Shown here in pieces: positions 2,153 to 30,976 of a DNA stretch of 54,052 bases. A program made the position numbers and the translations under genes. The notes under the pieces were generated by a model, which was given only the letters and a program-made list of their open reading frames with translations, made no database searches and was not told the origin of the DNA. The stretch comes from Syntrophaceae bacterium. GTDB taxonomy: Bacteria; Desulfobacterota; Syntrophia; Syntrophales; Smithellaceae. Each line of letters opens with the position of its first letter. Position 1 is the stretch's first letter. The DNA lies in assembly GCA_009773315.1 (NCBI GenBank), contig WRPE01000031.1, positions 1 to 54,052 of the forward strand, written 5' to 3'.

Positions 2153-2367
2153 AATCTTCTCCTTATCTGTTATTGAATAATTTTAATATTCTTCATACTT
2201 TTGTTCAGGTCTGGAAGCATAAGAGATGAAAGGGTGGATGTCAAAACAATTTTATTCTGCAAGAAACGAAAAAAAGCGCCAGAGGACTCCGGCCATTGAC
2301 ATTGCCGGTTATTCTGATAAAAACAAACCGTCATTTATTTCATAGTTGTTCGGATGGAGAAGACAAA

Positions 2368-2844
2368 ATGAAACTGATAACGTTCGGAATGGTGGACGAG
2401 TTGATCGCCAAAGCAGGCGCTACCTCAAGACTCAGGATTAATCACAATATCCACGAATCTTTATCCGACCCCGTGCAGCGATTATTCATCGCGGCCTGGC
2501 GCTCCTCGTATTTTCGGCCGCACCGGCATCCGGAAAAAAGCGAGTTTGCCATTGTGATTCGCGGCCTTTTTGATGTTATTTTTTTTGATGACGACGGTGT
2601 TGTTACCGAGCGGATTTCTGCGGGTCCGGGTACGGATACATTCGCCATGGAAATCCCGGCAGGCCGCTACCATACATGGATTCCCATGGCGGAACAGTCC
2701 GTGTTTTTTGAAGTGAAAGCGGGGCCTTACGATCCTGCAGCCTCGCTTTTATTTGCGCCCTGGTCGCCTGCGGAAGGCACCGCGCAGGTGAAAGAATTCC
2801 AGGCCTGGCTTCATACTGCGCGCATCGGCGAACGGATTTTATAA
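2368..2844 (+). CDS. WbuC-family cupin metalloprotein
   Basis: A 158-residue protein that matches the WbuC cupin-fold family from one end to the other. It contains LRINHNIHESLSDPVQRL, then the cupin metal site YFRPHRHPEKSEF with two histidines and a glutamate, FDVIFFDDDGVVTE, the second cupin motif EIPAGRYHTW and VFFEVKAGPYDP. WbuC proteins are often found near O-antigen loci and their reaction is poorly defined. I chose ATG 2368 over an upstream in-frame start because GGAG lies just ahead of it and family homology begins here. It is convergent with the ABM gene downstream, with a palindromic repeat between them. Confidence 0.8.
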   Translation: MKLITFGMVDELIAKAGATSRLRINHNIHESLSDPVQRLFIAAWRSSYFRPHRHPEKSEFAIVIRGLFDVIFFDDDGVVTERISAGPGTDTFAMEIPAGRYHTWIPMAEQSVFFEVKAGPYDPAASLLFAPWSPAEGTAQVKEFQAWLHTARIGERIL

Positions 2845-2859
2845 ACATCGATAAACAAT

Positions 2860-2940
2860 CTATCGCAAACCATCGTGTGACCTCGCGCCACCTTCAGGTG
2901 GTTAGGTCATTAGGGCCTTCTCTACCCCACGTGCCGATAG
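2860..2940. repeat. Interspersed palindromic element, copy at 2.9 kb
   Basis: Outer arms CTATCG (2860-2865) and CGATAG (2935-2940) enclose a nested hairpin. TGACCT (2878-2883) pairs with AGGTCA (2904-2909), and inside them CCACC (2888-2892), loop TTCA, GGTGG (2897-2901). The core resembles the copies at about 18.4 and 47.7 kb. It lies between convergent genes, so it may also work as a two-way terminator. Confidence 0.7.
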
Positions 2941-2973
2941 GTTAATTCCATTTCTAAATCAAAAAGGAATTAA

Positions 2974-3267
2974 TTAGACTTTCTGGATTTCTTTCATAAC
3001 CGACAACTCCGGTTTCCCGCCGATAAAGGCAGCGCTGGCCACAAAAAACTCCTTGAAATACGGCGTGGAAGAATGAAAATCCAGAGCGGCTTTATCTTTG
3101 TATTGTTCGACCACCACCAGCATGTTGGGATTGGCTTTGTCTTGATTGAGGGAATAAAGAACCGTACCCTCCTCCGAAGCCACTTTGAACATTAACGCCT
3201 TGAAGGCGGTTACGGCCTCATCCATCTTTCCCTCTTTAACAGGCAACTTGGCTATGACTGTAAGCAT
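2974..3267 (-). CDS. Antibiotic biosynthesis monooxygenase (ABM/YgiN-like) domain protein
   Basis: A 97-residue single-domain protein with the ABM ferredoxin-like fold pattern. It has MLTVIAKLPVKEGKMDEAV, EEGTVLYSLNQDK, the family core NMLVVVEQYKDKAALDFHSSTPYFKEF and a short C-terminal strand. Family members such as YgiN act on quinols or other small aromatics, or serve as heme or substrate-binding dimers; the role here is not known. The start has a strong ribosome-binding site, GGGGAGG, 6 bases before the ATG. It stands alone, convergent to the cupin gene and divergent from the KAS III-like gene. Confidence 0.8.
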   Translation of the reverse strand: MLTVIAKLPVKEGKMDEAVTAFKALMFKVASEEGTVLYSLNQDKANPNMLVVVEQYKDKAALDFHSSTPYFKEFFVASAAFIGGKPELSVMKEIQKV

Positions 3268-15291: not shown

Positions 15292-15317
15292 TATAAAAAA
15301 ATGACATTGAAATCTTC

Positions 15318-16229
15318 CTAATACTCGTCTGATGGTTCACGAATACATCCTGTGGGGCCAGATTTTGGGGCATCGAATTTTGATGGTGTTTTTTTCCGAT
15401 CAAGATGCAGGGCAATTTTCATGTCGCCGCTTAGTTTTGATTCTAGCCGCTCTATAAATTTTTCTACCGGGGGTATATCGTCGTTTCTGCGAAATGCGTC
15501 AAATAAGGCATCCACTGTTGAAGAAAACATTCTGGTAGCAATCAGTTCGAGACGATTACCATTTGCCTTTAGGTCATAAAGGGAAAACACTGAACACTCG
15601 CTTTTGTTATATCCCATTTCTGATAATCTGAACTTTTGCCTAAAATAATTAAATACCGGATCTTGAACAACCCAGAATATTTTTTTCCCCCACTTCTCCA
15701 TGATAATACCCTTGTTCAGGATTTGGGTAAATGTTCTTTTCCAGATGTCGTACATATTGATTCCAAAATGGTAGGAAGCGCCCTCCGAGATACGACTATC
15801 GGACATGAAATCTTTAAATCCTTTAACAAGTTGGCCCGTACTAGTTGTTTGACCTGTTTGAAACTCGACGGCAACAAAATCCTCAATCTGAACGCTCAAA
15901 GGTTTGTGCTTAACCATCACAAAATCGAAATTTCCTATCCCAGGCAAACCAACTTCTGAAAAGACAAGAACATTCTCACTCGTTCCGAACTGAGAGACAG
16001 CAATTGTCTGGAAAACTTTATTTTTTTCCAAAAAACGCCGGGGGCATAAGGCTATTTCCTGTCCTTCAACATGAGCGGTGCAGACACCAAAGGGGGTGTC
16101 AAGAAGTCTGCTCTGTTTATAACACGGTGACCCATGAAATGGGCACCAGAATTTCTTCCGCGCGTCGTTGGCGTCCAGCGATATATTCCGCAAATAAAAT
16201 CCAAAAATCTCTGAAGGGTATTTGGCCAT
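15318..16229 (-). CDS. NotI-family type II restriction endonuclease
   Basis: A 303-residue protein with the two hallmarks of NotI. The first is an N-terminal four-cysteine metal site: Cys29 and Cys36 in WCPFHGSPCYK, Cys50 in FGVC and Cys62 in LCPRRF. The second is a PD-(D/E)XK-type nuclease core, GNFDFVMV with Asp102 followed by VEFQTG with Glu122 and Gln124, the D...ExQ form known from NotI. The start is taken as the ATG at 16229, which overlaps the methylase stop as TAATG, so translation is coupled. An upstream ATG at 16256 would overlap the methylase by 28 bp. The recognition sequence is not readable. The A+T-rich text suggests transfer. Confidence 0.8.
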   Translation of the reverse strand: MAKYPSEIFGFYLRNISLDANDARKKFWCPFHGSPCYKQSRLLDTPFGVCTAHVEGQEIALCPRRFLEKNKVFQTIAVSQFGTSENVLVFSEVGLPGIGNFDFVMVKHKPLSVQIEDFVAVEFQTGQTTSTGQLVKGFKDFMSDSRISEGASYHFGINMYDIWKRTFTQILNKGIIMEKWGKKIFWVVQDPVFNYFRQKFRLSEMGYNKSECSVFSLYDLKANGNRLELIATRMFSSTVDALFDAFRRNDDIPPVEKFIERLESKLSGDMKIALHLDRKKTPSKFDAPKSGPTGCIREPSDEY

Positions 16230-18244
16230 TAGTCGCTCCCAATAAAATCTTTCCATAAATGGTTAATCTCGGCTTGATTAAAGTTTTGCTCAAGAATCCA
16301 ACCGAGATATTGCGCACAACCTCGACAAAATGCCTCACTGTCATTTGTTTGTAACTTTTCCGGTTCTTTCCACCGCCTTTCATCATCTGAATCGCAAGGT
16401 TTCAGCACAAGAATAGCGTCATGCTTTAGGGCGTGAAGGCTTCTAATGTGAACGGAAATAGGATTCTCTGAACAAACAATATAATTATTCATCAGTCTGA
16501 AGCGCGAACTGGCAAGGGATATGGTAAGTTGCGACCAAGCGGCGGCTCGCCAGTGATGGTAAGTAAAGATCAGCCTACCATGCGGCTTGATGAGAAGGCG
16601 ATGACATTCCTGCCAGATTTTAGCGAGAACATTCCCGAATTTTGATTCATTCTCTTGGCATTCAGCCACTGCGGACAGGAGTGGCTGATAATGCCAGTCA
16701 GCTTGATCAGGTAAGAACCAGCGGAGCCAACAGCGGAAAAAATGAGACAAATCGCTGTACTGGACATTATCAAAATAAGGGGGATCCGTGACGACATAAT
16801 CAATGGATTTATCGGGCAATGGCATCATAGAAGAATCATTTTGTTTAATGATGAAGGAGTGCGTTTTTCCCGTAAATTCATCAAGAGATTCGCATTCGTG
16901 CCCTAAATCTAATTCGCCATCAATAATGACTTTGTCCCACTTGGCACCCGTCCATCTACGCTCTACTGGTGCATGTGCCCATATCCCAGCTTTTAAGATA
17001 CGTTTATCAAATAAATTGAGCAGCGTACCGGATGTTTTAGCCTTGAAAACAGGATTGTTTTCTAATGCCGTCCATGGGAAAGAGTACGCATGATGAGAAA
17101 AAACGTGGCGTATGGCCCCTGGCCTTCGCTGATCGACGCCTTTATACCCACAAAGCATGGAATTAAATTCCAACGAGGTAGAGATGAGGAGTGCCAACCA
17201 TAACCGGTGTTCAGGGGCTGTTTCTTCAATGCACCGCTTTGCCTCAGACAGATAGATAAGTTGACGGGGAGAAAACAAGTTCAAATAATTCGTCACACCT
17301 CGCGCGAGCAAATCTGATGATTTTGGCCCTTGAGGAACTATAAAATCATTATCCGCTAAAAAGGTTAATTTAGCTACTTTTGAGACTGCGTTATCGATTT
17401 TTTGAAGGTCATTTTGATCAGGGGCCTTAAAATATTGGTTATGACGAGCGCATTTACCTACCATGACTAGAGGAACATAACGATCCATAAAAGGAATTTC
17501 CAAAAGCTCAGAATGCTTATTGTTTGCTCCTCTTTTCTTGGCTTCGTCCTTATCAATCAATGACCATGAACGGTTTCCGCGTTTAATTTCCAGCGATGGA
17601 TAGAAATCATGGATGGTTTTATTTTCTCCTGTTGTCTCTGCTCGCAGAATGAAAGAGTCCACAAAAACAGCTTCGTTACCATTGATCCGTCTCCTCAGTC
17701 CATAAAGCAGAAATTGCATGTCGCTTTTTTCATGACAATAGGGACATGAGGTATCAAAATGGTGGGACAGCTCCTGATTCATTTTTTTTAGAAACTCATT
17801 GAAAATGACCTGTTTTTCTTGAACGTCGATGTTGGTCAAAGTTGCACGGGCCTGCAGTACGGGAATAGGATCAACGTCATAACCAATAACATTGGCCCCA
17901 AGCCTTATGGCCTCATGCAGGGTCGTTGCTCCGCCCATCATCGGATCTAGGATAGTCAAACCTTCCAACCCCCCCGGCACATAGAAATTACGTTGATCAG
18001 GGTCAGTGGATAGCTGCTTGAGAATATAACGAAATGTAACACCGGAACGCCTTGCCCACCACTTGTGAAGATATGTATTGGGACGAAACAGGTGCTTATT
18101 GTATGATTCGATCTTGGCAAGCCTATCTGCCTCTTCTTCAGGGAAGAAAGAATCAATCGCTACTTCGGAAGACGGTAAGATAAATTTGCGTGCAATATCG
18201 CTGAAACCCAACATTAATTGTGTATTACTCATGAGCCGCTGCAT
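16229..18244 (-). CDS. DNA methyltransferase of DUF1156/COG1743-like type, partner of the NotI-like nuclease
   Basis: A 671-residue SAM-dependent N-methyltransferase. The N-terminal PNTYLHKWWARRSGVTFRYI is the HKWWARR signature of DUF1156-like methylases. SAM-binding motif I is LDPMMGGATTLHEAIRLGAN, followed by GYDVDP. The catalytic motif IV is TDPPYFDNVQYSDLSHF, of the DPPY class that methylates the amino group of adenine or cytosine. Between them are cysteine pairs (CPYC, and KCARH) like a zinc ribbon. It is first in a two-gene operon with the endonuclease and presumably protects its sites. No clear ribosome-binding site marks the start; 18232 is an alternative. The gene is richer in A+T than its neighbours. 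Confidence 0.8.
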   Translation of the reverse strand: MQRLMSNTQLMLGFSDIARKFILPSSEVAIDSFFPEEEADRLAKIESYNKHLFRPNTYLHKWWARRSGVTFRYILKQLSTDPDQRNFYVPGGLEGLTILDPMMGGATTLHEAIRLGANVIGYDVDPIPVLQARATLTNIDVQEKQVIFNEFLKKMNQELSHHFDTSCPYCHEKSDMQFLLYGLRRRINGNEAVFVDSFILRAETTGENKTIHDFYPSLEIKRGNRSWSLIDKDEAKKRGANNKHSELLEIPFMDRYVPLVMVGKCARHNQYFKAPDQNDLQKIDNAVSKVAKLTFLADNDFIVPQGPKSSDLLARGVTNYLNLFSPRQLIYLSEAKRCIEETAPEHRLWLALLISTSLEFNSMLCGYKGVDQRRPGAIRHVFSHHAYSFPWTALENNPVFKAKTSGTLLNLFDKRILKAGIWAHAPVERRWTGAKWDKVIIDGELDLGHECESLDEFTGKTHSFIIKQNDSSMMPLPDKSIDYVVTDPPYFDNVQYSDLSHFFRCWLRWFLPDQADWHYQPLLSAVAECQENESKFGNVLAKIWQECHRLLIKPHGRLIFTYHHWRAAAWSQLTISLASSRFRLMNNYIVCSENPISVHIRSLHALKHDAILVLKPCDSDDERRWKEPEKLQTNDSEAFCRGCAQYLGWILEQNFNQAEINHLWKDFIGSD

Positions 18245-18370
18245 ATCACAACAATAGAAATAATACCTGCAAATTATATTTGAATCTTGCCTGTGGCATA
18301 CTTCTCTTGGTGAAAGAATATATCATTCTGCTACCAGCAATCAGACAGGGATATTCAAATTGATAACGCG

Positions 18371-29818: not shown

Positions 29819-30976
29819 ATGGATTTTGCATTAACGGAAGAACAAACAATGATTCAGGATACGGCAAGAAGTTTTGCCGAAAAAGAAATTGCGCCGCACG
29901 TCGAGGAAGACGAGAAAAATCATTTCTGGCGCAAGGAAATTTTTCAGAAGATGGCCGACCTTGGATTTTTTGGCTTCTCCATCGATGAAAAATACGGCGG
30001 AAACGGCATGGGCTTTCTGGAAGGCGCTCTGGCCATCGAACAGATTGCTAAGGTGCACACGTCCTGGCGCATGGCCTTCAACATGCAATGCTGGGGACCC
30101 GCGCTCACCATTCAGAAATTCGGCACGGAAGAACAAAAGCAACACTACATTCCCAAGTTTGTCAGCGGTGAATATATCGGCAGCTTCGCCATGACTGAGA
30201 CGGACATCGGCTCGGACGTCGCCTCGATGAAATGCAACGCCGTCGATAAGGGCGATTACTATCTGATCAACGGCAATAAAATGTGGATCACCAACGGCAC
30301 CGTCTGTAATCATGGTCTGCTTTATGTCAAGACGGACAAGGACGCCGGCGCCAACGGCGTGAGCTGCTTCATCATGGATTACAGCCTGCCGGGCATTGAG
30401 CGCAAAACGATTCATGACAAAGTCGGCCTGTGGGCCTCCGATACCGCGGAACTGACGTTTGAAGACGTGAAAGTGCCCAAGAGCCTCTTGCTGGGCAAAC
30501 TCAACAAAGGATTCCAGATGTGTATGACGCAACTTAACTCCACGCGTCTGGGCTGTTCCGCCGGCGCCCTGGGTCTTTCCAGCGCCATCCTCGACGCATC
30601 GGCAAAATACGCGACGGAACGCTGTCAGTTTGGAAAGCAAATCGGCAAATATCAGCTCATCCAGCAGCAGGTCGCAGATATGAAGTGCGGGCATGAGACG
30701 CTGGCGGCACTGGTTTATAAGGCGGCGTGGCTCAAAGACAAGGGTCTGCCCAATGTCATGGAAACATCCATGTCCAAACTCTACGGCGCGAAAGTCGTCG
30801 TGCATGACGCCAATGAATGCATGAAGCTTTACGGCTCCTTCGGCTATTCCGATGAATATCCCTGCGGCCGCTTCCTGCGCGACTCCAAGCAGTTCGAAAC
30901 GCTGGAGGGCACCTCCAACATGCACACGATGATCGTCGCCAACGCGACGATGGGATTTGCCCCGAACCGGGCATAA
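29819..30976 (+). CDS. Acyl-CoA dehydrogenase (glutaryl-CoA dehydrogenase-like candidate)
   Basis: A 385-residue flavoprotein with standard ACAD landmarks: FAMTETDIGSDVASM for FAD/substrate binding, KMWITNG, RCQFGKQIGKYQLIQQQVAD, and the C-terminal LEGTSNMHTMIVA with the catalytic base Glu363. In decarboxylating glutaryl-CoA dehydrogenases the residue before this Glu is Tyr; here it is Leu362. That is compatible with a non-decarboxylating enzyme, but other acyl-CoA substrates are equally possible. The glutaconyl-CoA decarboxylase relic directly downstream favours glutaryl-CoA as the ancestral substrate. It is the last intact gene of the thiolase run. Confidence 0.85.
   Translation: MDFALTEEQTMIQDTARSFAEKEIAPHVEEDEKNHFWRKEIFQKMADLGFFGFSIDEKYGGNGMGFLEGALAIEQIAKVHTSWRMAFNMQCWGPALTIQKFGTEEQKQHYIPKFVSGEYIGSFAMTETDIGSDVASMKCNAVDKGDYYLINGNKMWITNGTVCNHGLLYVKTDKDAGANGVSCFIMDYSLPGIERKTIHDKVGLWASDTAELTFEDVKVPKSLLLGKLNKGFQMCMTQLNSTRLGCSAGALGLSSAILDASAKYATERCQFGKQIGKYQLIQQQVADMKCGHETLAALVYKAAWLKDKGLPNVMETSMSKLYGAKVVVHDANECMKLYGSFGYSDEYPCGRFLRDSKQFETLEGTSNMHTMIVANATMGFAPNRA

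Follow-up and report, generated by a model that had tools for sequence, protein, structure and literature searches.

The window analysed here, a stretch of 54,052 nucleotides from a Syntrophaceae bacterium, very probably carries an ordinary two-gene Type II restriction-modification (R-M) cassette in which the partners are an uncommon combination: a NotI-family endonuclease and a large methyltransferase from a lineage distantly related to HmaB and PglXI. The two coupled genes lie on the minus strand at 15318-18244, the methyltransferase gene upstream and the nuclease gene downstream, and both open reading frames were found where the original prediction had placed them. The features are as follows.

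16229..18244, minus strand: amino-methyltransferase of 671 aa (P0002), from PF01555 (E 1e-8), PADLOC matches of relatives and alignment
15318..16229, minus strand: NotI-family restriction endonuclease of 303 aa (P0001), from PF12183, a profile match to NotI 3bvq and conserved residues
16227..16231, minus strand: TAATG stop/start overlap from methyltransferase to nuclease, from the sequence and the junctions of 13 homologous loci
15292..18366, no strand: approximate system-bearing segment, from flank alignments and the junctions in genomes G049 and G045

The R-M reading is drawn from sequence throughout, namely from homologies, conserved residues, coupling, co-occurrence, mobility and selection, and both P0001 and P0002 are predicted on these grounds to be active enzymes. 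The upstream P0002 would use AdoMet to methylate, probably at the N6 position of adenine, the host copies of one short site, and the downstream P0001 would cut unmodified copies of that site in incoming DNA, presumably as a dimer on a palindromic sequence.

Coupling through TAATG is seen as predicted, the methyltransferase stop overlapping the nuclease start at 16231-16227, and five of the 13 homologous loci have the same junction. Reading from another in-frame ATG, nine codons upstream of this start, would give a 312-aa nuclease frame; we prefer the 303-aa start because in four homologous loci (L004, L007, L012 and L013) the open frame starts only one codon before the matching position. Relatives of the nuclease were found at 14 loci in named genomes, 13 of them with upstream DNA (L015 starts at a contig end). 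The same type of methyltransferase lies directly upstream in 12 of these 13, a count that includes L005, where unread bases break the methyltransferase gene into two frames, and in which L002 and L005 are probably identical to the records G050 and G036; a different methyltransferase is found at L014, the most distant of the 13 (nuclease 34% identical). Two further genomes of the phylum, G131 and G076, carry the same pair. The bins with nuclease relatives are labelled as Syntrophales, Desulfobacterales, Bacteroidetes, Anaerolineae, Poribacteria, Kryptoniota, Tritonobacter and others, and this spread of the pair over several phyla suggests that it has been transferred between them, if the binning is correct. 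The nuclease and methyltransferase trees agree in three main groupings (L009/L010/L084, L007 with L083, and the window's group). Values of dN/dS were low: for the nuclease 0.087 against G050, 0.065 against L003 and 0.061 against G428, and for the methyltransferase 0.15, 0.113 and 0.107 in the same order, with dS > 1 in the comparisons with L003 and G428; a nuclease comparison with L006 yielded no value. A nuclease gene beside what we judge to be its own methyltransferase gene, the two kept together, is the arrangement expected of a Type II R-M system.

P0001 matches the Pfam NotI family (PF12183) at 43.8 bits (E 2.5e-11), above the 22-bit cut-off. We regard its resemblance to NotI itself as remote, because a phmmer search of the PDB with the single P0001 sequence does not list NotI among matches at E up to 1. 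When a profile was built from ten family members, NotI (PDB 3bvq/3c25, E 4e-11) was its sole match at E up to 0.01, and the profile alignment lays the four cysteines and the D...EIQT core of NotI over C29, C36, C50, C62, D102 and E122-x-Q124, the residues that had been proposed as metal site and core. For residue conservation and the nuclease tree we used 27 full or nearly full nucleases, with no fragments or broken genes among them, and residues 12-269 of NotI. All 28 rows, NotI included, have D102, E122, Q124, K164, Q169 and K173. In the MAFFT alignment of the 28 rows the second cysteine of NotI is out of register, whereas all four match in the profile alignment. The original call of a NotI-type R-M system is thus upheld by the PF12183 score, the profile match to 3bvq, the 28/28 core residues and the constant upstream methyltransferase.

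The Cys4 site is not strict in the family. Position 62 is Ser in L009, L010 and L084, one or two of the positions are changed in the L077 and L079 nucleases, and all four residues are lost in the L014 nuclease (2283-3131). The L014 and the S62 nucleases constitute natural tests of the need for the metal site. NotI has iron at its Cys4 site and a glutamine in place of the usual lysine, according to sections of PMC4081073 and PMC4176176. We take P0001 to be a PD-(D/E)XK-like nuclease with a Cys4 site, which would bind iron and be catalytically active. An AlphaFold2 model of P0001 with 13 nuclease rows as input was poor (pLDDT 46) and Foldseek found no counterpart for it at E up to 0.001, so the identity of the fold is argued from sequence.

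In P0002, motif I (LDPMMGGAT, residues 99-107) is followed by a long insert and then by motif IV (TDPPY at 486-490, with DPPY at 487-490), an order that we take to mark the alpha class of amino-methyltransferases. The predicted HKWWARR N-terminus, motif I and DPPY are all present, and none of the 12 aligned methyltransferases departs from HKWWARR, DPMMGG or TDPPY. Within the insert C167-x2-C170 and C265-x2-H268 are invariant in the same 12, and these four residues could bind zinc. The match of P0002 to PF01555 has an E value of 1e-8. Against Pfam DUF1156 (PF06634) it scores 13.2 bits (E 0.098), and its relative L083 19.8 bits, both below the 24-bit cut-off; against NCBIfam NF042963 (DUF1156 anti-phage) it reaches 75.6 bits (E 2.5e-21), far below a cut-off of 1000 bits. 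Two HmaB models, PglXI and DUF1156_MTase of PADLOC match 12 of 12 relatives of P0002 at E up to 1e-10, and by these matches its clade is distant kin of the HmaB, PglXI and DUF1156 methylases. Of the earlier label 'atypical DUF1156-like', the atypical character and the distant kinship hold, whereas membership in DUF1156 by the Pfam cut-off does not. Type II methyltransferase models of PADLOC match weakly (for example PDLC03233, E 3e-12), so that a large methylase of the kind is not without precedent among Type II systems.

Matches to P0002 at E up to 1e-20 occur in 32 of 395 genomes of the phylum. Close relatives beyond its own genome are found there only in G428 (76% identical), G131 (55%) and G076 (53%), the next best match being 30% identical. 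In a tree of 23 chosen methylases, a long branch with 100/100 support divides the 15 members of the P0002 clade from the other 8; the tool flags one long branch outside the P0002 clade as possibly misplaced. The P0002 model has a pLDDT of 68 and a pTM of 0.70. Foldseek returned no match to it at E up to 0.001 (the best, at E 0.01, was Trm11), TTHA0409 and CcrM stand within the best 50 rows, and VIA found many SAM methyltransferases with other functions at Z up to 15.0. BREX methylases are not among the structure matches listed, which is no evidence of a difference.

P0002 is probably an N6-adenine methyltransferase. HmaB is annotated as a DNA-adenine methylase in PADLOC-DB, and the annotation in sections of PMC12839542 makes the lineage adenine-specific. 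DPPY does not by itself prove m6A, because Type III enzymes with DPPY/F can make m4C (six such enzymes in sections of PMC8259958), and HmaB is termed an m5C methylase in part of PMC8565338.

The identity of the base bears on the recognition site. It had been proposed that the system might share the specificity of NotI, so that the GCGGCCGC in the window would need protection. This site is real (30864-30871), and a single copy is no more than chance, the shuffled mean being 2.25. Counts of GCGGCCGC and of the reversed pattern were 104/184, 111/187 and 120/162 in the carriers G000 (the window's own genome), G050 and G036, and 105/199 and 97/158 in the close non-carriers G049 and G045. The site is depleted alike in carriers and non-carriers, and nothing in the counts ties it specially to the system. 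Accordingly, we consider it improbable that the pair is a true NotI isoschizomer, in which P0001 would cut GCGGCCGC and P0002 would make m4C in it. P0001 does have the catalytic and Cys positions of NotI, DPPY enzymes are capable of m4C (PMC8259958, in the sections cited above), and the carriers have fewer copies of GCGGCCGC than of its reversed control, but close non-carriers show the same kind of deficit, the single-sequence search does not reach NotI, and the methylase lineage is annotated as adenine-specific both in PADLOC-DB and in sections of PMC12839542. GCGGCCGC contains no A. Because an adenine methylase could not protect it, because 104 copies stand in the genome and because there is no clear extra avoidance, GCGGCCGC is probably not the target, and the proposed sharing of NotI's specificity is not borne out; the cassette would read a different site.

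We searched for avoided palindromes of 4, 6 and 8 uninterrupted bases against Markov expectations, a search with little power for 8-mers, in samples of 377 kb from G000 (window included), 361 kb from the carrier G131 and 299 kb from the non-carrier G049. Neither these samples nor the contrast of 64 six-base palindromes gave a candidate recognition site, and the majority of the avoided six-base words are avoided about equally in G049. ACCGGT showed the best contrast between carriers and non-carriers, with a z of -1.9 that is unremarkable among 64 palindromes. The eight-base word CGGCGCCG was an outlier in the G000 sample, with 11 copies against 22.8 expected (z -4.0), and not in those of G131 or G049. 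Its avoidance is gone on whole genomes, where site and reversed control number 205/129 in G000, 212/122 in the non-carrier G049, 221/114 in the carrier G050, 195/222 in G131, 200/263 in G076 and 544/263 in G428. Acinetobacter sp. NEB 394 carries a NotI-family plasmid; several methylated sites are reported for this strain in sections of PMC9122589, where the one motif named is the BREX site GTAGAT.

It is also unlikely, to our minds, that the two proteins work as one complex, in which the insert of P0002 would read the target (possibly asymmetric, as in BREX) and the NotI-like P0001 would only cut. The distant relation of P0002 to methylases of the multi-protein BREX and Hma systems, the gene coupling and the three tree groupings in common are consistent with such a complex; if it exists, a NotI-type nuclease would cut at sites picked by a BREX-like specificity domain. 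NotI, like other Type II nucleases, needs no partner to recognise DNA. BREX and Hma systems have large ATPase and helicase genes, and none lies beside the pair as judged by ORF length, since there is no ORF longer than 671 aa at 10-24 kb of the window (the longest in the whole window, of 823 aa, is at 48.6-51.0 kb). A related methylase, moreover, adjoins an EcoO109I-type nuclease, an ordinary Type II kind, at another locus (L168, below). The same genome as the window holds an apparent Hma system of its own (L048 3266-13573; contig C8, ~91.3-101.6 kb), whose ORFs match the HmaA helicase, the HmaB methylase and the HmaC ATPase (first 394 of 1110 residues), and its methylase is a distant relative of P0002.

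Returning to the reading as a Type II cassette, we compared the insertion site among close genomes. G049 and G045 lack the system, and in them flanks 96-97% identical to those of the window align 16 bp apart. In G050 the system occupies the same place as in the window, in G036 it adjoins the same transporter flank, with the other end beyond the contig, and in G034 and G040 both flanks are present but enclose other DNA; the right edge of the segment, 18366, was drawn from the end of similarity to G050 and G036 as well. The nuclease is carried by three of 20 members of the genus (G000, G036 and G050). We read the pair as a mobile two-gene unit. An origin in phages or viruses was considered and set aside, as phage records were without nuclease relatives and viral contigs were also without them (close relatives only). 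Methyltransferase relatives at E up to 1e-10 were likewise absent from phage records, and viral contigs gave only eight weak partial methyltransferase matches.

Some copies of the unit carry damaged nuclease genes. In G428 (L162 2505-3035) residues 83-212, the catalytic core included, are lost in frame; in L011 (5992-6717) residues 155-220 are missing in frame; and the L012 nuclease is frameshifted. The methyltransferase frame is open in all three, its first 47 residues lying beyond the contig end in G428. Nuclease loss with retention of the methyltransferase is the usual direction of R-M decay, and the damage may also be assembly error in metagenome bins. That the window's own pair is such a decayed or repurposed unit, with an epigenetic or anti-restriction P0002 and an inactive P0001, is most improbable despite these copies, given that the window nuclease is full length with its catalytic residues present and shows dN/dS values of 0.087 (against G050) and 0.065 (against L003).

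The partner combination was compared across the NotI family. PF12183 was found in 21 of 395 genomes of the phylum and in 0 of 14 control genomes. The partner survey covered 22 loci in those 21 genomes, one fragment (G297 C196) being left out, and partner type was assigned by best phmmer match, or by motif order for L085. The partners were D12-type at 12 loci, C5 at two, SPPY of beta order at one, SPPY of alpha order at one and the large alpha-order DPPY type of the window at three; at the other three of the 22 (L074, L087 and L090) no partner methylase was recognised. Four of ten plasmid NotI-family matches were opened and had C5 (two), SPPY-beta (one) and D12 (one) partners. The NotI-family nucleases examined thus pair, as far as their motifs and matches tell, with five types of methyltransferase: C5, D12, beta-SPPY, alpha-SPPY and large alpha-DPPY. 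In the nuclease tree of 28 rows, in which the long branches make the places of NotI and L077 unreliable, the nucleases with alpha-DPPY partners form one clade (99/97) and the one with the alpha-SPPY partner is its sister (97/97), and the C5-partnered and D12-partnered groups are not each one clade. Another genome of the same family, G011, has a different NotI-family pair (L020 512-2487; nuclease E 6.6e-64) with a D12 methylase.

A search of open-licence papers (titles and abstract openings) found no account of partner classes in the NotI family. Two results appear to be new: a NotI-family nuclease that stands constantly, within its clade, beside a large methylase that we relate to HmaB and PglXI, and the apparent range of five methylase types as NotI-family partners. 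From their motifs, these partners probably represent three chemistries (m5C, m4C and m6A). Five partner types imply that the NotI scaffold reads several different sites, and one should therefore not assume by default that a NotI-family gene encodes a GCGGCCGC cutter. Having conserved pairs in bins labelled as several phyla, the window's clade is a practical source for a new specificity.

Among known systems, NotI itself (PDB 3bvq/3c25; PF12183) is like P0001 in the Cys4 positions, the D...E-x-Q core and K164, Q169 and K173, a similarity that the profile brings out and the search with one sequence does not. The NotI-family pairs of Thermus brockianus, Sedimenticola and Pantoea/Acinetobacter plasmids are two-gene NotI-type units like the pair of the window; they use D12, C5 or SPPY methylases, whereas the window's clade has the large alpha-order DPPY enzyme. 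The methylases HmaB, PglXI (BREX type 3) and DUF1156 share with P0002 an HKWWARR-like N-terminus, motif I, a long insert and TDPPY(F). A 2026 survey describes, in sections of PMC12839542, BREX-related methylases that contain DUF1156 and in which a recognition insert follows core strand 2, and the insert of P0002 occupies the same position. P0002 differs from these proteins in size (671 aa, against profiles of 919-973 aa) and in sequence (~30% identity for the next-best match outside its clade).

Relatives of the methylase were also seen beside other genes. An operon of G043 (L046 7461-17284) joins a related methylase of 720 aa to a Type III-like helicase-nuclease, a DpdJ-like protein and a protein of 956 aa for which PADLOC gave no match at E up to 1e-20, and is possibly an undescribed multi-gene defence system; L163 (G212) is similar to this operon by ORF sizes. 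On a Tabrizicola piscis plasmid (L178 1543-4493), the gene of a ~275-aa 'hypothetical' protein, possibly an undescribed nuclease partner, overlaps the start of that of a related methylase. The closest parallel in kind is L168 (7479-10463, G338), where a 742-aa methylase related to P0002 adjoins a Type II nuclease, as here, and the nuclease family differs, being EcoO109I-type (PF14511, E 6.6e-16). Because of this neighbour, the methylase lineage of P0002 may serve several Type II nuclease families. In the pair of the window, a lone Type II nuclease has at its side a methylase with relatives in BREX-like and Hma systems.
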